Shown here: positions 754-61,682 of the stretch, piece after piece
Numbering within the stretch: the first letter of the stretch is position 1
Layout of the letters: every line of letters starts with the position of its first letter
The notes under the pieces: model-generated
Told to the model about the DNA's origin: nothing
Database searches by the model: none
The model's input: the letters and a program-made list of their open reading frames with translations, nothing else
Translations under genes and position numbers: made by a program
Assembly (NCBI GenBank): GCA_004299485.1
Contig: SCQP01000001.1
Location: forward strand, 372,001 to 436,000
DNA from: Acidobacteriota bacterium
Lineage (GTDB): Bacteria > Acidobacteriota > Terriglobia > Terriglobales > SCQP01
Length of the DNA: 64,000 nucleotides
Direction of reading: 5' to 3'

Positions 754-791
754 AGGCGAGAGTATAGCCCGGTGCCGCCAGCGGGCACGGC

Positions 792-815
792 CTGCGATGT
801 ATACTGCGATGTATG
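792..815 (+). promoter_or_regulatory. Tandem 12-bp repeat with -10 hexamer, ending in the vapB1 start codon
   Basis: CTGCGATGTATA (792-803) is followed directly by CTGCGATGTATG (804-815); the last three bases are the antitoxin ATG. The -10-like TATACT (800-805) spans the junction and lies 7 bases before the ATG. Probable autoregulatory operator (inference) and near-leaderless promoter. Confidence 0.55.
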
Positions 816-1103
816 GCGGAGACGATGGTGCGCAAGCAGCTCTATATCGAGCCGCGGCAGGAGCGGTTGCTGAAGCGGCTGGCGAAGGAGCGGGGCACGA
901 CGGAAGCCGAGATCGTGCGCGCCGCGATTGATAAGTACGCCAGCGAGCCGGAGGAATCGCGGGAGCAGCGGTGGGAACGATTCATCGCGCGGCTACGCGC
1001 GCGCGCGGAAGCGACGAAAGGAGCACCGCAGCATCCACGCGACTGGACGCGAGAGTCGCTCTACGAAGAGCGCATGCGGCGCTATGACCGGCATTCTGGT
1101 TGA
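813..1103 (+). CDS. Ribbon-helix-helix antitoxin of a VapBC-type pair
   Basis: 96 residues. The N-terminus (RKQLYIEPRQERLLKRLAKE, then TTEAEIVRAAIDKY) is a CopG/Arc-type ribbon-helix-helix: a short strand followed by two helices. The C-terminal part is charged (many Glu and Arg) and would wrap the toxin. It overlaps the downstream PIN toxin by 20 bases, the usual translational coupling of these operons. ATG 813 is chosen because it lies at the expected distance from a TATACT hexamer; no Shine-Dalgarno site is present. The repeat at 792-815 is the likely operator. Confidence 0.8.
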   Translation: MAETMVRKQLYIEPRQERLLKRLAKERGTTEAEIVRAAIDKYASEPEESREQRWERFIARLRARAEATKGAPQHPRDWTRESLYEERMRRYDRHSG

Positions 1104-1524
1104 CACCAACTTATTGGTGTACACCGTCGATCCTGGCGAAAGCACCAAACGCGAGCAGGCGATTGCCGCTGTGGACCGCTTGGGTCTTACGGGGCGTGGC
1201 TGTCTGAGCGTGCAGTCTATGTCTGAGTTCGCCAACGCGGTGCTGCGCCGGCGGCTGCTCAGCGCCGCGGAAGCGGACGATTACGTTGGGGAATTGACGG
1301 GCAAGTGGAAGATTTTTGATCTGACTCCGACGGTGGTGCGCGAGGCGTTGCGGGGCGTGCGGGAGCACCGGATGAATATCTGGGACGCGCAGATCTGGGC
1401 GGTGGCGCGGCTGCACGGGGTCGAGACGGTGCTGAGCGAAGATTTTCAGGACGGGATGCGGGTCGAGGGAGTACGCTTTGTCAATCCCTTTCAGCGGGCT
1501 TTCGATCTGGAAGCGCTGCTTTGA
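1084..1524 (+). CDS. PIN-domain toxin (VapC-type ribonuclease)
   Basis: 146 residues from ATG 1084, inside the antitoxin reading frame. Motifs of the PIN fold are in order: ILVDTNLLVY near the N-terminus (first Asp), SMSEFANAVL (Glu), and NIWDAQIWA followed by VLSEDFQDG near the C-terminus (acidic metal-binding residues). VapC toxins are Mg-dependent RNases that usually cut tRNA or rRNA; the target here is unknown. A longer upstream start is possible in this frame but would run through most of the antitoxin gene. A 110-bp dispersed repeat begins at the base after the stop codon. Confidence 0.85.
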   Translation: MTGILVDTNLLVYTVDPGESTKREQAIAAVDRLGLTGRGCLSVQSMSEFANAVLRRRLLSAAEADDYVGELTGKWKIFDLTPTVVREALRGVREHRMNIWDAQIWAVARLHGVETVLSEDFQDGMRVEGVRFVNPFQRAFDLEALL

Positions 1525-1634
1525 GTGGCTCGCCACTTTTTGCCCTGGTCGCTCCCGTTGGTCGCTTGGAGTGCGGGCGTCGATTCCCGGCAGGGTCCGC
1601 CCGCTGGCGCTCAGGGCTCCTCCAAGCTACCGCC
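1525..1634 (+). repeat. 110-bp dispersed intergenic repeat, copy 1
   Basis: Starts with the small hairpin GTGGC-TC-GCCAC and ends with CTCCTCCAAGCTACCGCC. Near-identical copies lie at 6232-6341, 59740-59849 and, inverted, 60567-60676; a decayed one lies at 58522. It abuts the vapC1 stop and ends 23 bases before sucC. Confidence 0.9.
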
Positions 1635-1657
1635 ATTTGCTATCCTAGAAATTCATC

Positions 1658-2824
1658 ATGAAAATCCATGAATATCAGGCCAAGGAACTGCTGCGCGGTT
1701 TTGGCGTGGCGGTTCCGCGCGGGCGCGTGATCAGCGAGGCGGCCGAGGCCGCCGCGGCGGCGCGCGAATTGGGCGGCCAAGCCGTCATCAAGGCACAGAT
1801 CCACGCCGGGGGGCGCGGCAAGGGCGGCGGCGTGAAGCTGGCCAAGACGCCCGAGGAAGCCGTCGCGCTGGCGGGCCAGATTCTGGGCATGACGCTGGTG
1901 ACCCACCAGACGGGGCCAGAGGGGCGGCTGGTCCGCAAGGTGCTGGTCGAAGAGACGGCCAATATCGTGCGCGAGCTGTATCTGGGCATTGTGCTCGACC
2001 GCAATGCGGGCACGCCGGTGTTCATGGCCTCGGCGGCGGGCGGCATGGAGATTGAAGAAGTTGCAGCGAAGACGCCTGAGGCGATTCTGAAACAGCCGTT
2101 CTTGCTGGGCACGCTGCAGCCGTATCAGGCGCGGGAGCTGGCGTTCGGACTGGACCTGCCGGCGGCGGCGCTGGGCAGCGCGGTGAAGATGATGACCGGG
2201 CTGGCCAAGGCCTATGTCGCGCTGGACGCCACGCTGGCCGAGATCAACCCGCTGATTCTGACCGCAGAAAACCAGGTGGTCGCGCTGGACGCCAAGATCA
2301 ACCTGGACGACAACGCGCTGTTCCGGCATCCGCAGCTTAAGGAGTTGCGCGATTTGAACGAAGAAGCGCCGCTCGAGGTCGAGGCCAGCCAGTACGGGCT
2401 GAACTACATCAAGCTCGACGGCAATGTGGCGTGCATGGTCAATGGCGCCGGCTTGGCCATGGCGACCATGGACATCATTCAATACGCGGGCGGGTCGCCG
2501 GCAAACTTTCTCGATGTCGGCGGCGGCGCGAATGCGGAACAGGTCAAGCACGCGTTTGAGATTCTGCTGAAGGATCCGGCAGTGAAGGCGGTGCTGATCA
2601 ATATCTTTGGCGGCATTCTGCGCTGCGACACGCTGGCGACGGGCGTAGTCGAAGCAGCGCATGCGGTGAAGCTGAGGCTGCCGCTGGTGATCCGCATGGA
2701 AGGCACGAACGTGGCCAAGGGACGCGAGATTCTGGCGGCATCGGGGCTGAAGATTACCGTGGCCGAGGGCATGAAGGACGCGGCCGAAAAGGTCGTAGCG
2801 GCAGCGAAGGCGGCAAGGGCATAA
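1658..2824 (+). CDS. sucC: Succinyl-CoA synthetase (ADP-forming), beta subunit
   Basis: 388 residues, full length for SucC. It makes succinate and a nucleoside triphosphate from succinyl-CoA in the TCA cycle as a complex with SucD. The N-terminus [17 protein letters not shown] is the family signature; residues 1-220 form the ATP-grasp region ([18 protein letters not shown]), followed by the CoA-ligase part ([37 protein letters not shown]). sucD follows 3 bases after the stop. The start ATG 1658 fits the conserved N-terminus; a TATCCT hexamer at 1641-1646 would give a 5-base leader. Confidence 0.97.
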
Positions 2825-2827
2825 GAC

Positions 2828-5040: not shown

Positions 5041-5046
5041 TATTCT
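5041..5046 (+). promoter_or_regulatory. -10-like TATTCT of queF
   Basis: TATTCT follows the yihY stop codon directly and ends 6 bases before the queF ATG, which predicts transcription starting at or next to the start codon. No convincing -35 was seen. Confidence 0.45.
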
Positions 5047-8260: not shown

Positions 8261-8266
8261 AGTATA
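8261..8266 (-). promoter_or_regulatory. -10-like TATACT of miaB
   Basis: On the minus strand TATACT ends 7 bases before the GTG start at 8253, predicting a leader of about one base. No clear -35. Confidence 0.45.
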
Positions 8267-8314: not shown

Positions 8315-8343
8315 TTGATCCGTAGCTACCTGGTGGCTACTAT
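8315..8343 (+). promoter_or_regulatory. Sigma-70-type promoter of vapB2
   Basis: TTGATC (8315-8320), a 17-base spacer, then TACTAT (8338-8343). The predicted start site, 7 bases on, is the A of the vapB2 ATG (8350). Confidence 0.6.
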
Positions 8344-8349: not shown

Positions 8350-8655
8350 ATGCTTGCTGTGGGGATCAAAGTTCTTAAGAACCGGTTGAGCGAATACGTG
8401 CGCTTGGCCGCCGGAGGAGAGACCGTGCTGGTATTGGACCGCAACCGCGTGGTGGCGGAATTGAACCCGCCGCGGCCGGCGAACCCCGTGCCCAGCAGCG
8501 ATGAGGACTGGAAGGCGCGTGGCGTGCGCGAAGGTTGGCTAACGCTGCCAACGCACAAGATGACCGGTGCCCCCAGGAACTTCCCCACGATGACGTTGGA
8601 GGAGCTCCTGGCGGACCTGGACGAGGCGCGCTCCGATCGTGATATACCTCGATAG
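8350..8655 (+). CDS. Phd/YefM-type antitoxin
   Basis: 101 residues. MLAVGIKVLKNRLSEYVRLA followed by GGETVLVLDRNRVVAELNP is the DNA-binding N-terminal fold of Phd/YefM antitoxins (..K..LS.yl..v..Ge.v.v..rg.pva.l). The C-terminal acidic tail is the expected toxin-binding part. It overlaps the PIN toxin gene by 17 bases. The start is fixed by the promoter: no Shine-Dalgarno site, and the predicted transcription start falls on the ATG. Confidence 0.82.
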   Translation: MLAVGIKVLKNRLSEYVRLAAGGETVLVLDRNRVVAELNPPRPANPVPSSDEDWKARGVREGWLTLPTHKMTGAPRNFPTMTLEELLADLDEARSDRDIPR

Positions 8656-9034
8656 TTCGGTGGTACTTGCAGCCCTGTTTGTCGAGCACCGGCGTCCTCC
8701 AGGTCAGTTCTGGATGCAGGATTTGACATCGAGCTGGTTGCTTGGCTATGAGGTGTGGAACCGATTGCATGCACACGCCGCCCCTGAAGCGGTCAAGGAT
8801 ACTGCCCGCATCATATTACGGAGCGTATTCCTGATTGACTTGGCGCACGCCGCCCTCGGTCGCGCTTTGGATCCATTTCCAGTCGCGGTCAAAACGCTGG
8901 ATGGACTTCACCTTGCAAGCATGGATTTTACGCGTAACACCGGTCGAGACGTCCGCGTTGCCACCTACGACCGGCGGCTGGCGCAGGCGGCGGAGGCGAT
9001 GGGGTTCGCGCTGTGGCAGTGGAACGAGAGCTAG
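8639..9034 (+). CDS. PIN-domain toxin (VapC-type ribonuclease)
   Basis: 131 residues starting at GTG 8639 within the antitoxin end. IYLDSSVVLAAL gives the first PIN Asp, LLGYEVWNRL the Glu, and KTLDGLHLASMDF with VATYDRRLAQAA the C-terminal acidic residues. A VapC-type RNase neutralised by the upstream Phd-like antitoxin. It is convergent with the long BNR gene and its stop is immediately adjacent (9034/9035). Confidence 0.85.
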   Translation: MIYLDSSVVLAALFVEHRRPPGQFWMQDLTSSWLLGYEVWNRLHAHAAPEAVKDTARIILRSVFLIDLAHAALGRALDPFPVAVKTLDGLHLASMDFTRNTGRDVRVATYDRRLAQAAEAMGFALWQWNES

Positions 9035-12000
9035 TTAGGGCATAAGTTGCTTGGCAGCGGCGATGGCGGTGGTGAGGTGCTGCTCACCTGCGGCGGCTTG
9101 CTGGCTCAGCGCGGCGAAGACGGCGACCTGTGCTGGCGTGGGATGCAGATAGGCCAAGTCGAGGTCGGCGACTAAATACGCCAGATGGCTGCGGAGTTTG
9201 GCTTCATAGGAAAGCGTACCTTCGCTGGCGTGTTCCTGTAGATCCACAAGGCCCAGGATGGTGCGGTTGAGGTTGATCAGCACCGGGTCTGCCTTGGCGG
9301 CAGGAACGGCGTGCTTGGCGACGGCGGCCTGCAGGGCGGATTGGACAGCGAGCGCCTGATTGAGCTTTGTGTCGAGGGCGTTCAAGGTGGTGTGAATCTT
9401 GAGCGACAGGACGAGACGCGCGTTCAGGTCACCCTGACTGGCGTCGATGCGCGGATCGAGCTTCACCGTGAAGGGCTTGCTGATTTTTTGGCCCGCGTAG
9501 TTGAGGGTGACGGTGTAGGCGCCGGGAGTGACGACCGGGCCTTCGACGCTGTCGTCCAAGCCGCCGGCCGCGGCGGGCACGTAGAAGCCTTTGACTTCGG
9601 TGGCGTCGGGATACCGCAGATTCCAGACGAAGCGGTTCATGCCGGGCGTGATGGCGGTCAGGCGCTGTTGCTGCAGGGCGGTGCGCTGAGATGGGCTCAG
9701 CGTGGCCATGTTCACCTTGGGCGCGTGGGCCGGTTTCAGGTGGAGGCTGTAGGTATTGACCACCTGGCCGAGATTGTTGGTAAAACTGAGCGTGACCGGC
9801 GTTTTGCTGCTGTAACTGGCGGGGACGTGGAAGAAAACGACGGCGCCAAAGGGCGGGTTTTCGCCTGATACGCCACCGCCGCCAAAGCCGCCCCCGGAAC
9901 CGTAGGCGTGACTGAGCCAGGCGGTGTCAGGCGAAAAGACGGCGACTTGGGCGCTGGTGGGTGACTTGCTGAGCTGCTCAAGTAGCGCGAGATTATCGAG
10001 AATCCAGAAGGCGCGGCCGTGGGTGGCGATGACGATATCGCCCTGGCGTGTATTGAGTGCAATGCTGCGCACATCGGCACGCGGCAGATTGAGCGTCAAC
10101 GGCTGCCAATGTGCGCCGCCGTTGAGACTGACGTAGACGGTCTGGTTGGTAGCGAGGAAAAGCAGATTGGGATCGTTGGGATCCTGAACGATGGAGTTGG
10201 CGTACTGGGCATTCCGGCCCTGGGGCAGGCCGTTGGTGATGGCGGTCCAGGTTTTGCCCATGTCGGTGGTTTTGTAGACGTAGGGGCGGAAATCGTCCCA
10301 CATATGGCGTTCGGTGGTGACGTAAGCGGTAGCGCTGTCGTTGACGCCTGGCTCGATCGCGCTGTACCAGCTCTCAGCGGGCGCCGACGGCGGGTTGACT
10401 TGCTGCCAGCTTTTGCCGCCGTTGAAGGTGACATGAAGTAGGCCATCGTAGGAGCCAGCCCAGATCACGTTGTCATCCTTGGGCGAGACGGAGATGACCG
10501 ACAGGCCGGGATAGGTTTCCGCGCCGGATTGATCGAGTGAGACCGGGCCGCCGGTGGGCGCTTCGGTTTTCGGATCGTTCCGCGTGAGGTCGGGACTGAT
10601 CTGGGTCCAGTGCTGGCCGTAATCGTCGCTCTTGAGGACGTACTGCGCGCCAATCAAAAGCTCTTTGGGATTGACCGGCGAAAAGGTGATGGCGTGGGTC
10701 CAGCCGAAGCGGTACTTCAGCTCGCCGGCGGAAGCGCCTTCCATGTAGTTGGGCCAGGGGCTGATGTCCTGGTACTGGCCCAGCTTCAGGTTGTAGCGCA
10801 TGAAGAGGCTGAAGTAGCCGCTGCCGTAGGTGATGTTGGGATCGCCGGGCTGCGGAACGACCCAAGTGCTTTCGCCGTAGGCGACGCGCTGCCAGGCGGC
10901 GGTAGGAATCGAGCCGCCCACGGCGGCGCTGGGGCCTTCGGTTGAGCCTTCATCCTGCTGCGCGCCGTAGACGTGGAAGGGGAATTGGTCGTCAAGGTTG
11001 ACGTGGTAGAACTGGCCGGTGGGCTGGTTGTGTTCGCTGGACCAGGTCTTGCCGCCATCCTGGGAGACGGTGGCGCCGCCGTCGTTGCCTTCGAGGAGAA
11101 TTTGCGGATTCTTGGGGTTGATCCAGACGATGTGGTTGTCGCCGTGCGGCGGGTGCAGCGGCGCCCAGGTTTGGCCACCGTCGCGTGTGGCCCAAACGCC
11201 ATCCACTTCGGGGACGTAGGCGGTGTTGGGATTGGTGGGGTCGACAAAGATCTGCATGTAATAAAAGGCGCGCTGGCGGAGTTCCATGCCGGCGAAGACG
11301 TGCTGCCAGCTCCGGCCGCCGTCGTTGGAGCGGTACACGCCGCCGGCGGCTTTGTTCTGGATGATGGCGTAGACCACGTTGGGCGAGCTAGCGGCCACGC
11401 CGACGCCGACGCGGCCCCAGACGCCCGTGGGCAGGCCAGTTTTGTGGGTGAGGTTGGTCCAATGCGCGCCGCCATCGGTGGATTTATAAAGGCCGCTGCC
11501 GGGACCACCGCTGAGGAGCGACCAGGGCGTACGTTGTGCCTGCCACATGGTGGCGTACAGGACGTTGGGCTGGCTGGGCGCCATGGCCAGATTGATGGCG
11601 CCGGTATTGTTGTCGACGAAAAGAATCTGTTTCCAGGTCTTGCCGCCGTCGGTGGTCTTGTAAACACCGCGGTTGGGATCGGGCACGAAGACGTGACCCA
11701 TGGAGGCGGCGTAGACGACATTCGGATCGGTGGGGCTGACAATGAGGGCGCTGGTGCTGTGGGTGTCGGCGAGACCGGCGTAGGCCCAGGTTTTGCCGCC
11801 ATCGGAGGAGCGGAAGACGCCATTGCCGGTGAGCATGTCATTGCGGATGTCGGTTTCGCCGGTGCCGGCATAGATGATTTGCGGATTGGAGGGCGCGACG
11901 GCGAGGGCGCCGATGCTGGGCGCCATAGCGCGGGTCTTGTCGGTGAGATTGGTCCAGCTCAGGCCGGCATTTTCGGTTTTCCAGACGCCACCGCCGACCG

Positions 12001-12184
12001 TGCCCATGTAGTAGAGCTTCGGGTTCGAGGGCACGCCGGCGATGGCAACAGCGCGGCCGCCAACAAAGGGGCCGATGCTGCGCCATTCGAGCTTGCCCAG
12101 GAGAGTTTGCGTCGGCACCTGGGCGGTGACCAGAGCGAACGGCAGAAAGGCGGCGGCGAGGGCCAGAGCGATGCGGAGTCTCAT
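9035..12184 (-). CDS. Secreted BNR/Asp-box (VPS10/sortilin-like) beta-propeller protein
   Basis: 1,049 residues. ATG 12184 is chosen because GGAGGA lies 9 bases upstream and MRLRIALALAAAFLPFALVTAQ is a signal peptide. Residues about 25-700 hold many Asp-box repeats (STDGGAHW, SNDGGRSW, TRDGGQTW, SQDGGKTW, TTDMGKTW, SLNGGAHW), as in the VPS10/sortilin-like propellers often annotated 'glycosyl hydrolase'; no glycosidase active site can be named. The last about 250 residues include a beta-rich part and a helical end. The family is abundant in Acidobacteriota and function is unknown. It is last in a minus-strand run containing ADOP permeases, and a paralogue lies at 21-24 kb. Confidence 0.85.
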   Translation of the reverse strand: MRLRIALALAAAFLPFALVTAQVPTQTLLGKLEWRSIGPFVGGRAVAIAGVPSNPKLYYMGTVGGGVWKTENAGLSWTNLTDKTRAMAPSIGALAVAPSNPQIIYAGTGETDIRNDMLTGNGVFRSSDGGKTWAYAGLADTHSTSALIVSPTDPNVVYAASMGHVFVPDPNRGVYKTTDGGKTWKQILFVDNNTGAINLAMAPSQPNVLYATMWQAQRTPWSLLSGGPGSGLYKSTDGGAHWTNLTHKTGLPTGVWGRVGVGVAASSPNVVYAIIQNKAAGGVYRSNDGGRSWQHVFAGMELRQRAFYYMQIFVDPTNPNTAYVPEVDGVWATRDGGQTWAPLHPPHGDNHIVWINPKNPQILLEGNDGGATVSQDGGKTWSSEHNQPTGQFYHVNLDDQFPFHVYGAQQDEGSTEGPSAAVGGSIPTAAWQRVAYGESTWVVPQPGDPNITYGSGYFSLFMRYNLKLGQYQDISPWPNYMEGASAGELKYRFGWTHAITFSPVNPKELLIGAQYVLKSDDYGQHWTQISPDLTRNDPKTEAPTGGPVSLDQSGAETYPGLSVISVSPKDDNVIWAGSYDGLLHVTFNGGKSWQQVNPPSAPAESWYSAIEPGVNDSATAYVTTERHMWDDFRPYVYKTTDMGKTWTAITNGLPQGRNAQYANSIVQDPNDPNLLFLATNQTVYVSLNGGAHWQPLTLNLPRADVRSIALNTRQGDIVIATHGRAFWILDNLALLEQLSKSPTSAQVAVFSPDTAWLSHAYGSGGGFGGGGVSGENPPFGAVVFFHVPASYSSKTPVTLSFTNNLGQVVNTYSLHLKPAHAPKVNMATLSPSQRTALQQQRLTAITPGMNRFVWNLRYPDATEVKGFYVPAAAGGLDDSVEGPVVTPGAYTVTLNYAGQKISKPFTVKLDPRIDASQGDLNARLVLSLKIHTTLNALDTKLNQALAVQSALQAAVAKHAVPAAKADPVLINLNRTILGLVDLQEHASEGTLSYEAKLRSHLAYLVADLDLAYLHPTPAQVAVFAALSQQAAAGEQHLTTAIAAAKQLMP

Positions 12185-12223
12185 TGTGTCCAATCCTCCA
12201 GACACAGATACTCTAAACCGTTC

Positions 12224-12260: not shown

Positions 12261-14705
12261 TCAGGATTCACGAAGGGCGGTCAGGGGGTCGACGCGGGTG
12301 GCCTGGAGGGCGGGTACGTAGCAGGCGAGGGCCGCCATGAGGACTAAAACCAGGCTAATCAGCGAGTAAATCGCCCAGTCGCCGGCGCCAGCGCCTTGAA
12401 TCAGGCCCTGCAGCGAGCGCGCCATGGCATAGGCGAGAGGCAGGCCGACGAGCAGGCCGATACCCAGCATGGCGCCGCCGCGGCGCAGAACCAGCATGAC
12501 GATGGAGCCGTGCGAGGCGCCGAGAGCCTGACGGATGCCGAACTCGTGAACGCGCTCGTTCACCAGGAAGGACATGACGCCGTAGACGCCAATGGCGGCC
12601 AGAATGAGCGCCAGCAGGCCGGCGACACTCAGCATGACCGAAACATAGGCGATGCCGATACTGGCCTCGTGGATGACCTGATGGAGCGATTCCATGGCGA
12701 AGAGCGGATCAACGGGATCGACCGAAGCGATGGCGTGACGCATGGCGGGACCGGCGGCGGTGACATCGCCCGAACCGGAGCCGCGCAACAGGAAGAAGGC
12801 TGAGTGATTGGGATGCTGGGCGGCGGGCATGTAGAAGGTTGAGACCGCCTGCGGGCTGGACCAGTTCCATTTCACGTCGCCGGCGACGCCCACAATGGTC
12901 AGCCATGGGTTGCTGGAGTTATCGTTTCCGAGCTTGATGTGCTGGCCGAGCGGGCTGCGATCGGGCCAGTAATGCTGCGCCATACGTTGGCTGATCACGG
13001 CAACGGGCTGCGTGCCGGCGCCGTCGGAGGCGGAAAAGGAACGTCCGGCGAGCAGCGGCACCTGCATCAGGGTGAAGAAACTGGGGCTGACAGACTGCGC
13101 CACAGCATAGCGCTGCTGGCTGGCGTTGCCGATGGGACGGCCTTCGATGCTGAAGCCGTTTTGATTGAGATCATTGCTCAGCGGGAGATACGTCGAGGTG
13201 GCGGTGGCGCGCACGCCGGGCAGCGCCTGTAGCTTGGCGAGTGTCTGCTGAAAGAACTGGGCGCGGGCGATGTCGGACTGCCAATGGCCGGAGCTGGGCA
13301 AGCGCATGGCAGCGGTCAGGGTGCGGTCGGGCTGGAATTGGGCGCCGGCGCCGAGGAGGGTGCGGAAGCCCTCGACCATCAAGGCGGCGCCGACCAGCAG
13401 AACAAGAGCGAGCGCGATTTGGGCCACGACCAATACCGCCCGCAGGCGCTGGCGGGACTGACCGATGGCGCCGCGGCCGCCTTCTTTCAAGGTGGAATTC
13501 AGTTGCGGACGGGCGGCGTGCAGCGCGGGCGCCAGGCCGGCGATCAGGCCTGCCAGGATGGCGATGCCGAGGGTATAGAGCAGCGCGGTTCCGTCGAGGC
13601 GGATGCGATCCCAGCCACCGATAAACTGGGCCACGTCGGCGGGCATGTTGACCAGAATGAGACGAATGGAGACGTAGGCGAAACCGAGACCTACACCGGC
13701 GCCGCCGATGATGCCGAGGAGGACGTTTTCGGTGAGCAGTTGGCGCACCAGGCGGCCGCGGCTGGCGCCGAGAGCCACGCGCAGGGCTAGTTCCTGACTG
13801 CGGCGAAGGGCGCGGGCGAACTGCAGGTTGGCGACATTGGCACAGGCGATGAGCAACAGAAAGCCGACGGCGCCAAGCAGCAGCCAGACGTAACTGGCGG
13901 TTTCGTAGCCGATGATGTAGTTCGTCAGCGTCTGCACGTTCACGCCCCAGCCGCTATTGGTAGCGGGATACTGGGCATCGATGCGGGCGGCAAGAGCGCG
14001 CATTTCCGCTTGCGCCTGCGTCAGGGCAGCGCCCGGGCGAAGCTCGGCAATGACCTGCAAGTTGTGGTTTTCGCGGTCGGCGAGCTGTTGCGGTGTGAGC
14101 GCCAAGGGCAGCCAGAGCTGCACCGCTTGCGGCATCACGGCATCTTTGCCCAGAATGCCGACGACGGTATAGACCTGCTGGTTGAGTTGGATCGTCTGGC
14201 CCACGATTGCAGGGTTGGCGGCGAACTGATGCTGCCAAAGCGACTGGCTGAGGATGGCTTCGCGGTCGTGGCCGGGCTGATCTTCGCCAGGCAGAAAGAC
14301 GCGGCCGCGCAGGGGTACCGAGGGCAGCAGTTTGAAGAAATTAACCGAGACCGCACCCGCCTGCACCATGACCGGCGTGCCGGAGCCGCTCAAGTTTACG
14401 TCGTTGTACTCGTAGGCCGCCAGCGCCTGGAAGACACTGGCCTGCTTGCTCCAGGTCGCGTAATTGAAGGCGGAAACAGTGTTGGTTGAGGAAGGCGGCG
14501 AATGCGGTGGGACCTCGGAGATGTCGAGCAGACGGTTCAGGTGGGCATAGGGCAACGGGTGCCGCAGGATGCCGTTGGCTACGCTAAAGATGGCGGTGTT
14601 GGCGCCAATGCCGAGGCCGAGCGCCAGAATGGCAATCAGGCTGGCGGCGGGCGCTTTAGTGATCAGCCGCAGACCGAAGCGCAGGTCATTCCAGAAGGTG
14701 CGCAT
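12261..14705 (-). CDS. ADOP-family MacB/FtsX-type permease (A)
   Basis: 814 residues. An N-terminal transmembrane helix (LIAILALGLGIGANTAIFSV, about 20-43) leads into a MacB-type periplasmic core domain, an FtsX domain with three helices (about 285-410), a second core domain and a second FtsX domain ending in VPALQATRVDPLTALRES. The RVDPxxALR end is an ADOP hallmark. These duplicated permeases resemble MacB without its ATPase; none is encoded nearby, so the energy source and cargo are unknown. ATG 14705 has AGGGAGGA upstream and sits one base after the stop of the next ADOP gene, so the two are cotranscribed. Confidence 0.93.
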   Translation of the reverse strand: MRTFWNDLRFGLRLITKAPAASLIAILALGLGIGANTAIFSVANGILRHPLPYAHLNRLLDISEVPPHSPPSSTNTVSAFNYATWSKQASVFQALAAYEYNDVNLSGSGTPVMVQAGAVSVNFFKLLPSVPLRGRVFLPGEDQPGHDREAILSQSLWQHQFAANPAIVGQTIQLNQQVYTVVGILGKDAVMPQAVQLWLPLALTPQQLADRENHNLQVIAELRPGAALTQAQAEMRALAARIDAQYPATNSGWGVNVQTLTNYIIGYETASYVWLLLGAVGFLLLIACANVANLQFARALRRSQELALRVALGASRGRLVRQLLTENVLLGIIGGAGVGLGFAYVSIRLILVNMPADVAQFIGGWDRIRLDGTALLYTLGIAILAGLIAGLAPALHAARPQLNSTLKEGGRGAIGQSRQRLRAVLVVAQIALALVLLVGAALMVEGFRTLLGAGAQFQPDRTLTAAMRLPSSGHWQSDIARAQFFQQTLAKLQALPGVRATATSTYLPLSNDLNQNGFSIEGRPIGNASQQRYAVAQSVSPSFFTLMQVPLLAGRSFSASDGAGTQPVAVISQRMAQHYWPDRSPLGQHIKLGNDNSSNPWLTIVGVAGDVKWNWSSPQAVSTFYMPAAQHPNHSAFFLLRGSGSGDVTAAGPAMRHAIASVDPVDPLFAMESLHQVIHEASIGIAYVSVMLSVAGLLALILAAIGVYGVMSFLVNERVHEFGIRQALGASHGSIVMLVLRRGGAMLGIGLLVGLPLAYAMARSLQGLIQGAGAGDWAIYSLISLVLVLMAALACYVPALQATRVDPLTALRES

Positions 14706-14706
14706 C

Positions 14707-17253
14707 TCAATCCTCCCTGAGCGCAGCGAGCGGATCGACGTGGCTGGCGCGGCGGGCGGGCAAGAAGCCGGCAATCATGGCCACGATCGTTAATGCGACG
14801 GCGGCACTCACATAGACGGTGGGATCGGAATAATGAAGCTGGAAAAGGTCCATGCGATGGACTGAGAGCTTGGCCAAGCCGAGGCTGACGGGAATGCCGA
14901 TGGCGACACCAATGCCGAGCAGCAGCAGCATTTCGCGCATGACCATGCCGATGACGTTGAAGCGGGAAGCCCCCAAGGCCATGCGGACGCCGATTTCCGC
15001 CTGGCGGCGGGTGACGCTGTAGGCCATGACGCCATAGAGCCCGATGGCGGCGAGCAATAGCGCGAGGACGCCGAAGAACCCGCTCAGTTTGGCGAGCAGG
15101 GTTTGGCTGACGGCGGTCTGAGAAATCAGCGTTTGCACGGGCGCGAAGTCCTGCACGCGGATACTGGGCGCAAGCGCGAGAATTTCATGGCGCAGCGCCG
15201 TGGCGACCGCGGCCGACGAACCCGATTCGCGGATCAGAACGGAAGTGCCCGGTGGCGGGGTGGCCACCGGCAGACCGTTGAGGAAGGGAAAATACATGCG
15301 CGGCATGTCCGGTTCATCGAGGCTGCCGACTTTGATATCGGCGCAGACGCCCACCACGGTGTACTCAGCGCCATGGTCGTCCGGAAAAGCATCGATGATG
15401 TGATGCCCGATGGGGTTCCGGGTGGCAAAGAAGGTTTTGGCCATGGTCTGACTGATGACCACGTTTTTGGTGGCGCTGGTGGCATCGGCCTCATTGAGGG
15501 CGCGGCCCATGAGAATCGGAATGCCTACCGTCTTGAAGTAGCCGGCCGAGACCTGATCGACCATGGCGGCGCTGCCCATGCCTTCGCCCATGGAGCCGGC
15601 GGCAGGAGGAGTGTAGCCGTTGACCTTGATGGGAATGCCGGCGTTGCTGCCGTCAAACAGACCAATCATGGAGAGCGCGACGCCCTGCACGCCGGGCGTC
15701 GCAGCGGTGCGGTCGAGAAAGCGGTGATAGAACGCCGCCAGCGATTCGCCGCGAAACCCAGCACGTTCGGCGTTGAGGTCAGTTTCAACGAGATCCTTGG
15801 TGGAGAAGCCGACGCTTTGCGACTCGAGCTTGAGGAGGCTGTGCAGGAACAGACCGGCGCCGACGAGCAGGATCACCGAGAGCGCGACCTGGCCGGCGAC
15901 CAGGGCTTTGCCAAGCGGCATGCGGGCGTGAACGGCGCGGCCCTCGGCTTTGAGCGTGGCGTTCAGATCCGTGCGGGCCATGCGCCACGCCGGCGCGAGG
16001 CCGAAGAGCAGACCGGCGAGCACCGAAATGCCGAGCACGAAGCCCAGCACACGAGCATCGGGGGCGAGCGGCAGCGTCAGCGAACCACCAGCGCTGACCA
16101 TGCCCAGCAATAAGTGCACACCCCACCAGGCGAGTAGCGCGCCGAGGGCGCCGCCGCAGAGTGCCAGCAGCACGCTTTCGGTGAGCAATTGCCGCAGGAT
16201 GCGGCCGCGACTGGCGCCCAACGCCAGACGCACACAAATTTCCTTTTGCCGCACAGCCGCGCGCGATAGCAGCAGACTGGCGAGATTCACCACCGCAAGC
16301 AGCAGGATGAGGCCGACCAAGGCCAGCAGCGCCAGCAGCGGGGCGGAAAACTGGCCGCGAGCGGCCGAGGCTCCGCGGGCGCCACTCGAGAGCTGCAGCC
16401 GCTGGCTGAGCACCGACTGGCGGATTTGGCCGGAGGCGGCACCCATTTGGGATTGCAGCGCTTGCTGGAAAATGGCGTTGCTTTGGGCTTGCGCGGCGGC
16501 CAGCGTGACGCCGGGTTTCAGGCGGCCGATGACTTGCAGCCACATGAAACGCGAGACGCCAGGCGGGTTATGGAGCAAGTCCCGGCCCGGCAATGCTTGC
16601 GCCTGCATGGCGATGGGCATCCAGAGGTCGGGCTCGAGGCCAACGTCCGTACCGAAAAATCCGGGCGGGGCGATGCCGATGATGGTGAAGCTATTGCCGT
16701 GCAACGTAAAGGTACGGCCGATAACGTCTGGATTGCGGTGAAAGCGCTGGTTCCAGTAACCGTAACGCATGAGGGCGACCGGGTCGGCGCCGGGCTTAAG
16801 CGCCTGCTGATCGGCAAAAGTTCGACCACGATAGGCCGGCACTCCCAATACGTTGAAATAATTATTCGAGACTAATTCAATACGGGCAAGTTCAGGAGTG
16901 GCGGACTCGCCTGAGCGGCTCCAATTCACAAGAGTGCGCGGATGTTCGGTGCCAAAGGCGGCCAAGCCGCGGAAGGAAGTATCGGCGGCGCGCAATTGCT
17001 GGTATTCCGGATAGGCGAGCTTGCCGCGGCGGCCACCGCTCGTGCCCAGGCTGAGACCGTCCTGCGCCGGATCAGTGAGCATGACGAGCTGACTGGGATG
17101 GCTGACCGGCAGCGGCTGCAGCAAAACGGCATTGACCAGCGTGAAGATCGCCGCATTGGCGCCAATGCCGAGGGCCAGCGTGAGCAACGCAACGGCGGTA
17201 AAACCGGGCGTTTTGAGCAGCATCCGGCAGGCAAGGCGGAGGTCACGCAGCAT
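14707..17253 (-). CDS. ADOP-family MacB/FtsX-type permease (B)
   Basis: 848 residues with the duplicated ADOP layout: first helix (VALLTLALGIGANAAIFTLV), periplasmic core, FtsX domain near 300-420, second core, second FtsX domain (IGLYGVMAYSVTRRQAEIGVRMALGAS), and the terminal ASHVDPLAALRED. First gene of a two-gene ADOP operon with permease A. A TATAGC hexamer lies 7 bases before the ATG. It is closely similar in layout to permease C at 17.8-20.4 kb (shared LLHNPPGVSR and YGVMAYSV stretches), so B and C look like a local duplication. Confidence 0.93.
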   Translation of the reverse strand: MLRDLRLACRMLLKTPGFTAVALLTLALGIGANAAIFTLVNAVLLQPLPVSHPSQLVMLTDPAQDGLSLGTSGGRRGKLAYPEYQQLRAADTSFRGLAAFGTEHPRTLVNWSRSGESATPELARIELVSNNYFNVLGVPAYRGRTFADQQALKPGADPVALMRYGYWNQRFHRNPDVIGRTFTLHGNSFTIIGIAPPGFFGTDVGLEPDLWMPIAMQAQALPGRDLLHNPPGVSRFMWLQVIGRLKPGVTLAAAQAQSNAIFQQALQSQMGAASGQIRQSVLSQRLQLSSGARGASAARGQFSAPLLALLALVGLILLLAVVNLASLLLSRAAVRQKEICVRLALGASRGRILRQLLTESVLLALCGGALGALLAWWGVHLLLGMVSAGGSLTLPLAPDARVLGFVLGISVLAGLLFGLAPAWRMARTDLNATLKAEGRAVHARMPLGKALVAGQVALSVILLVGAGLFLHSLLKLESQSVGFSTKDLVETDLNAERAGFRGESLAAFYHRFLDRTAATPGVQGVALSMIGLFDGSNAGIPIKVNGYTPPAAGSMGEGMGSAAMVDQVSAGYFKTVGIPILMGRALNEADATSATKNVVISQTMAKTFFATRNPIGHHIIDAFPDDHGAEYTVVGVCADIKVGSLDEPDMPRMYFPFLNGLPVATPPPGTSVLIRESGSSAAVATALRHEILALAPSIRVQDFAPVQTLISQTAVSQTLLAKLSGFFGVLALLLAAIGLYGVMAYSVTRRQAEIGVRMALGASRFNVIGMVMREMLLLLGIGVAIGIPVSLGLAKLSVHRMDLFQLHYSDPTVYVSAAVALTIVAMIAGFLPARRASHVDPLAALRED

Positions 17254-17292
17254 ACTACTGGCTATACGCGGGAAGCGGCTTACCGAGTTCCG

Positions 17293-17838
17293 TTAATGTA
17301 GAAAGGATCCCAGCAGCATGGTCCAGCCGGGCAGCAGCTCGGGGGCATCCATGTATTCGCCACGATCGGCGGAGCGAACCTCGGGTTGGATGCCCGGCTT
17401 GGTGAACAGGTGGGCCTCGCCATATTCTGGATACAATACCCAGACTCGGACAGTGCCCGCGGCCAAGTACTGGTTCACTTTTCCCTGCATGGCGCCAGGG
17501 CGGTCGCTGCTCGATATAATTTCAACGGCCAGATCGGGCGCCATCGGCTGCACGTTCAGGCTTTCATATTCCGTTTGAAAGCGCTCGGCGCGAATGAATG
17601 CCACATCGGGGCGCCGTACCGTATCTGGGCCGAGCTGAAAATCGCTTTCGCTTGTAACCACGCCCATTGGGTGATCGCGCAGCCATGCGCGTAACGAGGC
17701 GTTGATGAGATCGCGGATTTCGTTGTGCCGGAAGGTTGGTGCAGCGCACACGACCAGCTCTCCTTCGCTCAGCTCGTAGGGCGCGCCCTCGGGCAGGGCC
17801 ATGTAGTCGGCCAGCGTCCAAGCGGTTTTGGTCGCCAT
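17293..17838 (-). CDS. Uma2-family (DUF820) PD-(D/E)XK-fold protein
   Basis: 181 residues. MATKTAWTLADYMALPEGAP, YELSEGELVV, RHNEIRDLINASLRAWL, RRPDVAFI and DLAVEIISSSDRPG are the ordered motifs of the Uma2/DUF820 family, predicted restriction-endonuclease-fold proteins whose function is not established. The Glu of YELSEGEL, the Asp of RPDVAF and the Glu of AVEIIS match the expected catalytic acidic residues. It stands alone between two ADOP genes. TAAACT ends 6 bases before ATG 17838 and overlaps the stop codon of the upstream ADOP gene. Confidence 0.85.
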   Translation of the reverse strand: MATKTAWTLADYMALPEGAPYELSEGELVVCAAPTFRHNEIRDLINASLRAWLRDHPMGVVTSESDFQLGPDTVRRPDVAFIRAERFQTEYESLNVQPMAPDLAVEIISSSDRPGAMQGKVNQYLAAGTVRVWVLYPEYGEAHLFTKPGIQPEVRSADRGEYMDAPELLPGWTMLLGSFLH

Positions 17839-17844
17839 GAGGGT

Positions 17845-17850
17845 AGTTTA
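17845..17850 (-). promoter_or_regulatory. -10-like TAAACT of the Uma2-family gene
   Basis: On the minus strand TAAACT is followed by six bases and then the ATG at 17838, predicting a leaderless mRNA. The hexamer overlaps the stop codon of permease C (17848-17850). Confidence 0.45.
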
Positions 17851-20382
17851 CTCCTGGCGCAGCGCCTGCAAGGGGTCGACGCGGCTGGCACGAAGGGCGG
17901 GCAAATAGCCGGCGAGACTGGCTACCGCCGCCAGAAGAACCACGGCGGCGGCAAGCGAAGCGGGATCGAAATAGCTAAGACCAAAGAGGTGGATCTGGCT
18001 GGAGACAATTTTGCCGCCGCCGAGCGCCGCGGGTATGCCGATGATCACGCCGACGGCGACCAGCAGTAGCGTTTCGCCCAGGATCATGCGCACGACGGCG
18101 CTGCGGCTGGCGCCCAGCGCCAGGCGAACGCCCAACTCGCTGGTGCGCCGGGCGACGCTATAGGCCATGACGCCGTACAGGCCGATAGCGGCCAACAGCA
18201 GCGCCAGCAGGCCGAAGAAGCCACTGAGGCGGGCGAGCATTTTCTGCGTGGCCAGGGAGGCGTCCACCATTTCTGCCATCGTGCCTAAGTCGCCGAATTG
18301 CACGTTGCTATCGAGCGAGCGCACGGTGCGACGCACGCCCTGCGTCACCGCGGCGGCGGGGCCGGAGCTGCGGACGAAGATGCGGGCGTCGGTATTGGCC
18401 TGGCCCGGCAAGCCGTTGAAGAAGGATAAATAGAAGCGGGGCGGCGTTTTTTCTGACAGGCTGTTGTATTTGGCGTCGGCGCAAACGCCCACAACCGTGA
18501 AGACCGCGCCGTGATCGTCGGGATAGATATCGTGGATTTGCCGGCCGAGCGGATTGCGGCCGGCGAAGAAGCGCTTCTGCATGGTCTGGTTGATCACAGT
18601 GTATTTCACGCCGCTGGTCGCATCCTGAGGGGTGAAGCCGCGGCCGAGCAGGATGGGAATGCCCACCGTCTGAAAATATCCGGTAGAGACTTCGTCTGCG
18701 CGGGCGCCGCTTCCCTGCCGACCATTGGGCGGCGTATAGCCGTCGACGGCGACGGGCAGACCCATTTCGCTGTGGGCGAACAGGCCATCAACACTAAACG
18801 CCGCGCCGCTGACGCCCGGCAGCGCGCGCAGACGATCGAGAAGATGGTGAAAGTAGGCCGTGGCGGCAGCGCCTTTGTAGCCGGCGGTATTGGTATTCAC
18901 CCCGAAAAGCGAGAGGCCTTGTGCCTCGAAGCCGAGAGGCACGTCCTGCAATTGGCTCAGACTGCGGACGAACAGGCCCGCGCCCACCAGCAGCACGATG
19001 GAGAGCGCGATCTGCGCGATGACCAGCACCTTGCCGAGGCGCAGGCGCTGATGGACGCTGCGCCCCTGTGCTTGCAAGGTGTTATTCAGATTCGTGCGCG
19101 ACAGACGGAGCGCGGGAAGAAGGCCAAACAGAACGCCACTGAAGAGGCACAAAATGGCGATGAAACCGAGCACGCGCCAGTCTGGCGCAAGGCTAAGACT
19201 CATCGCGGTCCGCCCCGCGCCGGAGCCGGCCATCGCCAAAAGCAGATGCTCGCCCCAGAACGCCAACACCACGCCCAGCAGTCCACCCACGACCGCGAGC
19301 AAGACGCTTTCGGTCAGAAGCTGACGGATGATGCGGCTCCGGCCGGCGCCGAGCGCCAGGCGCACGCTGACTTCTTTTTGCCGTGCCGTGGCACGCGCCA
19401 GTTGCAAGCTGGCGAGGTTCACGATAGCTTCCGCCAGAACCAGACCCACGAGCGCCAGCAGGGCCCAGAGCGGATCGGCAAACTGGCCGCGCAAGCTGGA
19501 AGCACCGGTACGGCCGCTGGAAAGTTTCAAGTGCTGGGTCAGCAGGTTGCGGCGGGTTTGCGCATCCGCGGCCGCGCCCGCCTGCTGCTCGATGACGTGA
19601 TGGAAAATCGAGTTGCTGGCGGCCTCTGCCGCCGTCAGCGAGACATCGGGCTTGCGCCGGCCGAGAACCTGGAGCCACATCGCGCGCGATACGCCGGGTG
19701 GGTTGTGCAGCAGATCGCGGCCGGGGCGAACGTCGAGTTGCATACTCAGGGGAAACCACAAATCCGGCGCCTGACCCACGCTCTCGCCAAAGAACCCGGG
19801 CGGAGTAACGCCGATGACCGTAAACGTGTGGCCATGCAGACGCAGTGTGCTGCCCAGCACGGCGGGGCTGCGCGCGAAGCGCTGGTTCCAGTAGGCGTAG
19901 CTCATGACCGCGACCGGGTCGGCGCCGATCTTGATGGCCGCATCAGGCGAAAACACCCGGCCGCGGAAGGCCGGAACGCCCAGCACGCTGAAGAAGTTGT
20001 TGCTGACCAATTTGGTCATGACGCGCTCGCCGCCGGCGCTGCCTGCACCCCAGGTCACCTGCTGGCGGTCTTCGCTCGATTCCGCGGCCAGCAGGCCGGC
20101 GAAGACATCGTTTTGATCGCGCAGGGCGGTGTACTCGGTGTAGGCCAGCAGGCCGCGTTGGCCGCCGGTGGTACCGAAGTCCATGCCCGAGTCAGTGGGA
20201 TCGGTTAAAAACGCTAACTGCGAGGGGTTCTGCACAGGCAGCGGCCGCAGCACGATGGCGTTGATGAAGGTGAAAATGGCGGTATTGGCGCCAATGGCGA
20301 GCGCCAGCGTCAGCAACGCGACGGCCGCAAAGCCGGGCGCTTTGCGCAGGGTGCGGAGGGCGAATTTCAGGTCTTGCAGCAT
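17848..20382 (-). CDS. ADOP-family MacB/FtsX-type permease (C)
   Basis: 844 residues with the ADOP layout: VALLTLALAIGANTAIFTFI helix near the N-terminus, MacB-like periplasmic core, first FtsX domain (about 300-420), second core, second FtsX domain (IGLYGVMAYSVARRTSELGVRLALGAS) and the terminal ASRVDPLQALRQE. No ATPase gene adjoins it. It diverges from the vapBC3 operon; about 95 bases separate the two starts. No Shine-Dalgarno site is evident; a TATAAC-like hexamer about 40 bases upstream could serve as -10. Confidence 0.92.
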   Translation of the reverse strand: MLQDLKFALRTLRKAPGFAAVALLTLALAIGANTAIFTFINAIVLRPLPVQNPSQLAFLTDPTDSGMDFGTTGGQRGLLAYTEYTALRDQNDVFAGLLAAESSEDRQQVTWGAGSAGGERVMTKLVSNNFFSVLGVPAFRGRVFSPDAAIKIGADPVAVMSYAYWNQRFARSPAVLGSTLRLHGHTFTVIGVTPPGFFGESVGQAPDLWFPLSMQLDVRPGRDLLHNPPGVSRAMWLQVLGRRKPDVSLTAAEAASNSIFHHVIEQQAGAAADAQTRRNLLTQHLKLSSGRTGASSLRGQFADPLWALLALVGLVLAEAIVNLASLQLARATARQKEVSVRLALGAGRSRIIRQLLTESVLLAVVGGLLGVVLAFWGEHLLLAMAGSGAGRTAMSLSLAPDWRVLGFIAILCLFSGVLFGLLPALRLSRTNLNNTLQAQGRSVHQRLRLGKVLVIAQIALSIVLLVGAGLFVRSLSQLQDVPLGFEAQGLSLFGVNTNTAGYKGAAATAYFHHLLDRLRALPGVSGAAFSVDGLFAHSEMGLPVAVDGYTPPNGRQGSGARADEVSTGYFQTVGIPILLGRGFTPQDATSGVKYTVINQTMQKRFFAGRNPLGRQIHDIYPDDHGAVFTVVGVCADAKYNSLSEKTPPRFYLSFFNGLPGQANTDARIFVRSSGPAAAVTQGVRRTVRSLDSNVQFGDLGTMAEMVDASLATQKMLARLSGFFGLLALLLAAIGLYGVMAYSVARRTSELGVRLALGASRSAVVRMILGETLLLVAVGVIIGIPAALGGGKIVSSQIHLFGLSYFDPASLAAAVVLLAAVASLAGYLPALRASRVDPLQALRQE

Positions 20383-20445: not shown

Positions 20446-20481
20446 CCATGCAACCAAAACGGTTGTAAAATGGTTGCATGG
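20446..20481 (+). promoter_or_regulatory. Perfect 11-bp inverted repeat over the vapB3 -10 region and start codon
   Basis: CCATGCAACCA (20446-20456) and TGGTTGCATGG (20471-20481) are exact complements; an extra GGTTG half-site lies between them (20461-20465). The -10-like TAAAAT (20466-20471) ends 6 bases before the ATG (20478), which itself lies in the right arm. Probable autoregulatory operator; binding here would block both RNA polymerase and the start codon. Confidence 0.7.
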
Positions 20482-24151: not shown

Positions 24152-24157
24152 ATTATA
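24152..24157 (-). promoter_or_regulatory. -10 TATAAT of the second BNR gene
   Basis: A perfect TATAAT on the minus strand ends 7 bases before the ATG at 24144, predicting a one-base leader. Confidence 0.55.
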
Positions 24158-24646: not shown

Positions 24647-24688
24647 GGTAATAACCTACCCTGACGCGAGCGTATCTTTGGGCGGATT

Positions 24689-27233: not shown

Positions 27234-27262
27234 TTGACATCACAATGCAATTTGCGCATCAT
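27234..27262 (+). promoter_or_regulatory. Promoter of vapB4
   Basis: A perfect TTGACA (27234-27239), a 17-base spacer and CATCAT (27257-27262). The predicted start site is the A of the ATG at 27269. The elements lie between the divergent M42 gene and vapB4. Confidence 0.55.
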
Positions 27263-48750: not shown

Positions 48751-48756
48751 AGTGTA
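48751..48756 (-). promoter_or_regulatory. -10-like TACACT of queD
   Basis: On the minus strand TACACT ends 6 bases before the GTG start at 48744. Between 48757 and 48870 only GC-rich hairpin-forming sequence was seen, no gene. Confidence 0.45.
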
Positions 48757-49152: not shown

Positions 49153-49159
49153 GCCTCTA

Positions 49160-49260
49160 AGTTATCAGTTTTCAGTTGTCAGCTTTCAGTTTTTGGCGCC
49201 GCGATCCTCGAAGTTCGCTCGTACGACTGAGAACTGACGACTGATTACCGACGACCTCAG
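49160..49260. repeat. Two opposed heptamer arrays able to pair as a long hairpin
   Basis: First array 49160-49194: AGTTATC, AGTTTTC, AGTTGTC, AGCTTTC, AGTTTTT. After 31 bases the second array 49226-49260 reads ACTGAGA, ACTGACG, ACTGATT, ACCGACG, ACCTCAG, which is the opposite-strand version of the same motif. The arrays could form an imperfect stem. They separate the PpiC gene's stop from the GlsB-type gene's start on the minus strand, and could act as a terminator or processing site (inference). Confidence 0.75.
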
Positions 49261-51038: not shown

Positions 51039-51044
51039 TACACT
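51039..51044 (+). promoter_or_regulatory. -10-like TACACT of ribBA
   Basis: TACACT ends 6 bases before the ATG at 51051. This spacing favours ATG 51051 over the in-frame ATG 51027, which would lie upstream of the hexamer. Confidence 0.45.
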
Positions 51045-60676: not shown

Positions 60677-60700
60677 CCCCCGTGCGGGAGATTCCGGCTC

Positions 60701-61387
60701 TCAAGCGATGGCGCCGAGGGCGTGCAAACTGGGCTCACTGTGGATGAGGCGCGCCAGCAGCCGCATCACCGCCGCGTCGAGCGGTCCAAAATGACCGTCG
60801 GCCGGATCGCCCGCGAGCATGACCTGCACGCGCGGCGCGGGCGCACACTCCAGGCCGATCACCTCGCCCCCAAAGCCCTGCCGGCTCAGCTCACGGCCAT
60901 CACTGCTGCCCATTTCCTGTACTTCCAGGCGCGCCCATCCGCGCTCGCGCAGCCGCTGGCCAAAGCCGTCGACCCGCAGCACCGAACCCGGCCTGGTGCT
61001 GGATACATCTCCCACCAAGTAGAGATCGGAGCCGCTGCGTACCCAGCGCCAGAAGGTGACCCGGCGGGCGCGCGTGCAGGCGCGCACTGCGCCGTGCAGT
61101 TGCGCCAGCGCCTCGGCTGGGCTGGCTTCCTCGCGCAACTGCTGCACCTGGTGCAGAAGCTGGGCCAGACCGGCGTCGGCGGGAACCACCCGCTCGGCCT
61201 GACATTGACGCATCAGTTCGCGAGCGGAATGAACTTCGGCCTTGCGATAGATCGTCTTGAGATAGTCTTTCACCGTGTTCACGCTCAAATCAAGCTCGTG
61301 GGCGATGTCTTTGACGGCCTTGGCCTGCGTCACGGCATAGACGATTTGCCGCTCCCGCTGCGAAAATTCCCGCTTCCCTGGGTTCAT
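60701..61387 (-). CDS. Regulator with N-terminal LuxR-type HTH and C-terminal GAF-like domain
   Basis: 228 residues. Residues about 8-65 form a GerE/LuxR helix-turn-helix (FSQRERQIVYAVTQAKAVKD, IAHELDLSVNTVKDYLKTIY, RKAEVHSARELMRQC). The linker is followed by a domain (about 90-220: AVRACTRARRVTFWRWVRSG, SDLYLVGDVSS, GEVIGLECAP, HFGPLDAAVMRLLARLI) resembling a GAF domain. Most LuxR-type regulators have the HTH at the C-terminus, so this order is reversed. GAGGAGA lies upstream of ATG 61387, and a 14-bp palindrome (61407-61420) near the promoter may be its own operator. Ligand unknown. Confidence 0.75.
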   Translation of the reverse strand: MNPGKREFSQRERQIVYAVTQAKAVKDIAHELDLSVNTVKDYLKTIYRKAEVHSARELMRQCQAERVVPADAGLAQLLHQVQQLREEASPAEALAQLHGAVRACTRARRVTFWRWVRSGSDLYLVGDVSSTRPGSVLRVDGFGQRLRERGWARLEVQEMGSSDGRELSRQGFGGEVIGLECAPAPRVQVMLAGDPADGHFGPLDAAVMRLLARLIHSEPSLHALGAIA

Positions 61388-61406
61388 GGATGCCGCTCTC
61401 CTCGTC

Positions 61407-61420
61407 TGCTTATATAAGCA
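61407..61420. promoter_or_regulatory. Perfect 14-bp palindrome TGCTTATATAAGCA
   Basis: Lies 20 bases upstream of the HTH-GAF gene's ATG and includes a TATATA -10-like centre. A dimeric regulator site, probably autoregulatory, is inferred. Nothing else was seen between 61421 and 61553. Confidence 0.5.
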
Positions 61421-61553
61421 AATATCCTCATGTTGCTGAGGTAAAGCGATTCTGCCTCATGTTCATCGCAACCAGATATAGATTTGTAGCGAAGATTTGC
61501 GGCACAGTCCCGCGACATTGTCTTCGCGTTTTCTTTGGCACGCAGGGGGGGGG

Positions 61554-61643
61554 TGGCGGAGAGATGGGGATTCGAACCCCAGATACCCTTTCGGATATAC
61601 ACGCTTTCCAAGCGTGCGCCTTCAACCGCTCGGCCATCTCTCC
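61554..61643 (-). tRNA. tRNA-Ser (anticodon GGA)
   Basis: On the minus strand the acceptor arms GGAGAGA/TCTCTCC pair, the anticodon loop reads CTTGGAAAG (GGA), a long class II variable arm is present, and the T arm has GGTTCGAATCC. CCA is encoded at the 3' end (61556-61554). 90 nt, typical of tRNA-Ser. Confidence 0.95.
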
Positions 61644-61670
61644 GCACTGGGGTAAAGCGCTCTCTCAGTA

Positions 61671-61676
61671 TAAACT
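61671..61676 (+). promoter_or_regulatory. -10-like TAAACT of rsmD
   Basis: TAAACT (within TATAAACT, 61669-61676) ends 6 bases before the ATG at 61683. It lies 28 bases beyond the divergent tRNA gene. Confidence 0.45.
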
Positions 61677-61682
61677 TCAGCC

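Follow-up and report, generated by a model that had tools for sequence, protein, structure and literature searches.

Predicted leaderless promoters with a -10 box just ahead of the start codon, and their concentration at VapBC antitoxin genes, in an uncultured Acidobacteriota genome

Many genes of an uncultured member of the Acidobacteriota, and above all its VapB antitoxin genes, carry a -10-like hexamer immediately ahead of the start codon. The analysis began with a window of 64 kb (the whole stretch of DNA under study, positions 372001-436000 of contig C1) from a genome assembled into 22 contigs (3.30 Mb, 98.8% complete, 65% G+C). Here a sequence-only reading had listed 16 genes with such a hexamer 6 or 7 bases before the start codon, and all 16 hexamers are present as placed. 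With a probability of about 0.9, we take these sites to be sigma-70 promoters whose +1 falls at the start codon, that is, promoters predicted to yield leaderless mRNAs. Judged by sequence, the strict signature (TANNNT at 12 or 13 nucleotides (nt) before the start codon) is estimated to stand above background in about 12% of all genes and in about 55-60% of VapB antitoxin genes. Placement of the -10 box, preference for ATG, TATAAT-like bases in the hexamer and the joint movement of box and start among QueF orthologs all support the leaderless reading, the last of these most strongly.

The spacing of the hexamer could be assessed well beyond the window. Genes were called with a codon-bias score over 436 kb of contig C1 (379 genes, the start being the coding-score start) and sorted into first genes, mid-distance genes and internal genes, the last lying at most 25 nt behind a same-strand gene. 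Among 173 first genes, TANNNT occurs at offset 12 in 14 and at offset 13 in 9, against 0-5 at other offsets; an equal density of hexamers at other distances, which the sequence-only reading had named as the contrary outcome, is thus not what is found. From other contigs a second sample, 389 kb in all, was chosen around matches to the PIN domain and is therefore biased towards VapBC loci (stretches under 5 kb were dropped); it has the hexamer at offsets 12 and 13 in 10 and 9 of 152 first genes and in 12 and 4 of 64 mid-distance genes. When 8 first and 3 mid-distance genes were removed as VapB and any ATG or GTG within 90 nt was admitted, the signature was found in 35 of 165 first genes (mean 8.1 and maximum 12 over 20 control offset pairs) and in 14 of 72 mid-distance genes (mean 3.2, maximum 7), the two classes in which it is strongest. 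Over all three classes, internal genes included, the excess over control comes to roughly 46 of 367 genes, a rough figure that counts TANNNT only and from which the share of about 12% derives.

Counts made free of annotation point the same way. Over 908 kb, half of it chosen around PIN matches, the pattern TA[CT]ANT-gap-ATG occurs 34 times at a gap of 6 and 32 times at a gap of 7, whereas gaps 18-38 average 7.4. With GTG the peak is weak (12 and 10 against 8.0), and with TTG there is none in the same sample (4 and 10 against 6.6); a peak at ATG, a weak one at GTG and none at TTG are what leaderless initiation predicts. Across the whole genome TATANT-N6,7-ATG is found 65 times, against 14 times at N18,19. 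Moreover, in 58 ATG or GTG matches the bases not used for selection resemble TATAAT, position 4 being A in 55% and position 5 being A in 47% or C in 40%, and G stands two bases upstream of the hexamer in 55%.

The 16 sites of the window are as follows, with window coordinates of the hexamer, strand, and the gene that follows.

761-766, minus strand: TATACT, 7 nt before the ATG at 753; the frame has only 31 codons and is a broken or remnant gene.
800-805, plus strand: TATACT, 7 nt before the ATG at 813; antitoxin (weak PSK_trans_fac match), with a PIN protein at 1084-1524.
5041-5046, plus strand: TATTCT, 6 nt before the ATG at 5053; QueF.
8261-8266, minus strand: TATACT, 7 nt before the GTG at 8253; UPF0004/radical SAM protein, MiaB-type.
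8338-8343, plus strand: TACTAT, 6 nt before the ATG at 8350; Phd/YefM-like antitoxin (below cut-off), with TTGATC 17 bp upstream.
17261-17266, minus strand: TATAGC, 7 nt before the ATG at 17253; MacB/FtsX permease; a weak site.
17845-17850, minus strand: TAAACT, 6 nt before the ATG at 17838; Uma2 protein; a doubtful site.
20466-20471, plus strand: TAAAAT, 6 nt before the ATG at 20478; FitA-like ribbon-helix-helix antitoxin, with a PIN protein at 20738-21121.
24152-24157, minus strand: TATAAT, 7 nt before the ATG at 24144; sortilin/BNR-repeat protein.
24653-24658, minus strand: TAGGTT, 6 nt before the ATG at 24646; no family over the cut-off.
27257-27262, plus strand: CATCAT, 6 nt before the ATG at 27269; DUF6364/VapB-like antitoxin (below cut-off), with TTGACA 17 bp upstream and a PIN protein at 27538-27957.
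33222-33227, minus strand: GATAAT, 6 nt before the ATG at 33215; pyridoxal phosphate-dependent decarboxylase.
48751-48756, minus strand: TACACT, 6 nt before the GTG at 48744; 6-pyruvoyl tetrahydropterin synthase (PTPS) family.
49159-49164, minus strand: TAACTT, 6 nt before the ATG at 49152; no family over the cut-off.
51039-51044, plus strand: TACACT, 6 nt before the ATG at 51051; DHBP (3,4-dihydroxy-2-butanone 4-phosphate) synthase plus GTP cyclohydrolase II, RibBA-type.
61671-61676, plus strand: TAAACT, 6 nt before the ATG at 61683; Cons_hypoth95 family.

The distance to the start codon is 6 bases at 11 of these sites and 7 bases at 5, and 13 hexamers fit TANNNT, those of 17253, 27269 and 33215 being the exceptions; the two -35 elements claimed at 17 bases, for 8350 and 27269, are both there. 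The assertion that all 16 genes head transcription units holds by geometry for 10, whose upstream neighbour is divergent or at least 100 nt away. Four others (17253, 24144, 24646 and 51051) have a same-strand gene 39-75 nt upstream, whereas 5053 and 17838 follow one at 12 and 9 nt, and 753 merely opens the broken frame of 31 codons. Similarly, the stated lack of Shine-Dalgarno (SD) sites is borne out by eye at 15 of the 16, an SD tetramer between -17 and -6 being present at 17838 alone. The site of 17838 is doubtful, since the TAA of its hexamer also terminates the upstream gene and AGGAG stands at -17. An inverted repeat, ATGCAACCA/TGGTTGCAT, flanks the -10 box of 20478 on both sides (by eye). 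PADLOC returned no match for the eight toxin-antitoxin (TA) proteins.

Past the 31 codons of the frame at 753, in window 1-753 on the minus strand, protein-like sequence seems to continue in another frame, which has the look of a frameshift, of gene decay or of a misassembly. A set of three long genes (837-848 aa), all in the same orientation, occupies 12261-20382 on the minus strand with a Uma2 gene among them, and the sole one scanned (14707-17253, minus strand) has MacB/FtsX domains. Two further long proteins on that strand, at 9035-12205 and 21118-24144 (1056 and 1008 aa), bear sortilin/BNR (Asp-box) repeats.

That all four VapBC operons of the window belong to the set was also claimed, and the observation extends across the genome, although the fourth operon (8350/8639) is weak, its partner at 8639-9034 giving a PIN match below the cut-off (E 0.015). 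The genome has 77 PIN-domain (VapC-type) matches in 3.3 Mb at E of 0.001 or less, a few of them partial; by the candidates of a first look it leads 119 Acidobacteriota genomes in both count and density, with 86 against 65 in the next genome. Two of the 77 loci lack an antitoxin frame and were dropped; of the 75 VapB genes that remain, 46 have an ATG or GTG start with TANNNT at 12 or 13 nt. Twenty control offset pairs give a mean of 4.55 and a maximum of 13, the latter owing to a secondary rise of TANNNT at offset 24 (10 of 75). Compared with the non-VapB first genes, the VapB genes are far richer in the signature (Fisher p = 3e-9, a comparison by sequence in which the start ranges searched differ). 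Leaderless-type VapB genes start with ATG in 40 cases and GTG in 6, TTG not having been admitted, and an SD tetramer precedes 1 of the 46, as it does 3 of the 29 other VapB genes. Of the 75 toxin starts next to none has the signature: 0 at offset 12 and 1 at offset 13.

The VapB signature was also sought in other genomes. The two nearest named relatives carry it at 6 of 10 and at 3 of 10 VapB genes, although in the second of them no clear peak rises above the other offsets, and a third relative has it at 3 of 6 (a sample of 30 was drawn from 82 PIN matches, and the 4 that lacked an antitoxin frame were dropped, leaving 26). When the one best PIN locus per genome was taken across the phylum, 2 of 26 carry the signature (control 2.05), while in 11 of the 26 at least one ATG is preceded by an SD tetramer, 4 of 30 loci having been dropped for want of an antitoxin frame. 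G103 and G049, which belong to other families and whose genome-wide signal is strong (42 vs 13 and 35 vs 7), have it before 6 of 9 and 5 of 10 VapB genes; G074, of the same order and with a weaker genome-wide signal (74 vs 46), has it before 1 of 8, with an SD site at 6 of 8 (30 of 143 PIN matches were taken for the three, and 3 of the 30 dropped without a frame). From this contrast, over few genomes, the antitoxin signal seems to follow the host genome. Across 119 genomes the VapC count correlates with the leaderless signal (Spearman 0.38, partial 0.32 given a background proxy), and on group means at 0.32 (p=0.008; partial 0.23, p=0.07; 66 groups, families incompletely merged). We do not rely on this as a rule that VapC-rich genomes are leaderless-rich, for the ratio has the proxy as its denominator, and the counts are themselves raised by VapB promoters.

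Conservation of individual promoters provides a further line of evidence. For QueF, 13 of the 14 ortholog loci, from genus to order, place TANNNT 11-13 nt ahead of an ATG, and that ATG lies -21 to +1 codons from the edge of the match, so that the start shifts by some 20 codons; 14 control offset triples give 0-1 (the set excludes the G126 fragment and a second G120 copy). The spacing is thus kept despite a varying length of the N-terminus, which argues that start and -10 box move together. For RibBA, 8 of 15 loci from 14 genomes (G122 contributing two) carry the signature, 8 of 10 within the same family, with 0-3 in the control triples. The MiaB-type protein of 8253 has its nearest relatives in CRAIB_MAG75 and CRAIB_MAG124 (80% and 72% identical), in both of which the box is still 13 nt before a GTG; of its best 80 relatives 78 are named as Acidobacteria or subgroups of them, many as Terriglobia. 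By the patterns in the three genes, the trait belongs to the lineage, with gains and losses gene by gene. In whole genomes, four of the same genus give 28, 44, 32 and 28 occurrences against 1, 6, 7 and 6 for a reversed-pattern control, and four of the same family 42, 33, 24 and 58 against 23, 8, 17 and 31. Among the 119 genomes of the phylum, gaps 6/7 exceed gaps 18/19 in 13 after Bonferroni correction and in 29 at p<0.01, by a test that is weak for A+T-rich genomes with their high background; the source genome ranks second by p-value and tenth by ratio.

Several explanations other than leaderless transcription could be considered. A loose AT-rich hexamer might be findable by chance near any start even at 65% G+C, and the three hexamers outside TANNNT, the one that shares its TAA with a stop codon and the small annotation-free TANNNT peak of the 64 kb window alone (10 and 7 against 5.2) would fit such a view. 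Controls at other offsets, made on 436 kb, on 908 kb and genome-wide, together with ortholog conservation, make it barely credible: for the set as a whole, chance is ruled out by the offset controls, the second sample and the annotation-free counts, while the single sites at 17253, 17838 and 753 may be chance. For VapBC only, TANNNT could instead be part of the antitoxin operator repeat, the true promoter lying further upstream. Inverted repeats with an arm of at least 6 do occur in 23 of the 46 51-nt segments of leaderless-type VapB genes, where mononucleotide shuffles give 4.25, many of them by eye (uncounted) over or beside the -10 box as expected of antitoxin operators, and the rise at offset 24 would suit a promoter upstream. 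Yet the 23 of 46 without such a repeat keep the 12/13 spacing, the TG of an extended -10 stands before the hexamer in 23 of 46, and genes outside TA systems bear the same signature, which makes an operator origin very unlikely.

It is also conceivable that the hexamers are real -10 boxes of short-leader promoters, whose mRNAs would retain a leader of between a few and about 20 nt and be initiated in the ordinary way or without SD. The second sample has a shoulder at offset 14 (7 of 152), and this and the MiaB orthologs, whose box lies at 12 to 20 or more nt, speak for such leaders. In Terriglobia these orthologs often keep a TATACT-like box at a distance that drifts (by a hand count of 76 loci without offset control, about 17 have it at 12-13 nt and about 34 anywhere within 12-15 nt; four of the 80, L027, L052, L089 and L095, were dropped for too short an upstream sequence), so that short leaders occur too. 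The peak at 11-13 nt in QueF and at 12-13 nt in the contig C1 sample and the lack of a TTG peak in the annotation-free counts render short leaders an unlikely account of the signal.

Other observations, like the drift in MiaB, weigh against leaderless promoters as a general explanation. Operon-internal genes also peak, if more weakly (11 of 130; control mean 2.8, maximum 6), beside the first-gene peak that had been predicted. The assignment of SD sites to internal genes holds on average, an SD tetramer being present in 40 of the 120 without TANNNT over a background of 8%, but these genes have that TANNNT excess as well. SD depletion in leaderless-like first genes is not significant alone (1 of 19 vs 20 of 146, p=0.47), and the 58 ATG or GTG matches have no clear -35 consensus. 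RibBA in another family of the order has the signature in 0 of 5 loci, and the signal is weak in some same-family genomes (24 vs 17 reversed). Further, gene starts are simple coding-score calls that missed 4 of the 16 noted genes (753, 5053, 20478 and 27269), and a whole-genome search for the 16S rRNA gene (RF00177) found none, the same search having succeeded in only 9 of 14 control genomes.

If the sites are leaderless promoters, their working could be pictured simply. With the A of the start codon counted as +1, the -10 box would occupy -12 to -7, its canonical placement, and transcription would begin on the start codon or no more than about one base away from it. The resulting mRNAs would be translated without SD pairing, alongside SD-led initiation of other, mostly operon-internal, genes; in other bacteria, particles preloaded with initiator tRNA recognise the 5' AUG. 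Initiation on 70S ribosomes is a translation route of leaderless mRNA. Many VapBC operons crowd the predicted promoter, an operator-like inverted repeat and the start codon into about 40 bp, and binding of the autorepressor would therefore cover all of them together. A tentative extension is that in VapBC-rich Acidobacteriota antitoxin genes repeatedly became leaderless, with promoter, operator and start fused and the antitoxin mRNAs freed from the need for canonical SD initiation, the signal taking its form from the host genome rather than from the ancestry of the module, an outcome as in Mycobacterium tuberculosis. If this were true, it would suggest selection for antitoxin synthesis that persists when stress or toxin action lowers canonical initiation.

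For practice, annotation of start codons in this group should use a -10 model beside SD sites. Judging by VapBC, there may be a second phylum where leaderless antitoxin genes go together with a very large TA set, and the mycobacterial link between the two thus becomes testable for generality in cultivable soil bacteria. In the literature, for which subscription papers fall mostly outside coverage, no paper whose title or opening abstract treats leaderless VapBC in Acidobacteriota was found.

The leaderless start as such is a known phenomenon, and the new part seems to be its concentration in a very large VapBC set. The sequence-only reading had implied novelty for the lineage; this fails, because the lineage is Acidobacteriota and leaderless genes led by TANNNT about 12 bp upstream were already predicted by computation in 3 of 3 Acidobacteria genomes, at a mean of 13.3% (9.7-19.4) of genes (Zheng 2011, PMC3160421). 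Signal and share are similar here, in an uncultured Terriglobia family, and enrichment in TA genes is absent from the passages of that study that we draw on. A prediction cited in PMC9581028 puts leaderless use at 21.6% of bacterial species, and engagement of IF2 and initiator tRNA before mRNA binding is described as a leaderless route in other organisms (PMC10783764). A transcription start site (TSS) map of M. smegmatis gives ANNNT/TANNNT -10 boxes and 24% leaderless transcripts, with cofactor-synthesis genes among the enriched classes (PMC6448022); QueF, the PTPS-family gene and RibBA of the window likewise belong to cofactor synthesis, here as individual examples and not as class statistics. 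For the TA genes the parallel is M. tuberculosis, where 32 of 37 TA pairs with a primary TSS are leaderless, with a TANNNT -10 and no -35 consensus (Cortes 2013, PMC3898074). These features and the leaderless predominance in TA genes are common to both, in different phyla and with starts mapped there and predicted from sequence here, whereas TGN before TANNNT is rare in M. tuberculosis (7%) and frequent in the VapB promoters described here (23 of 46).

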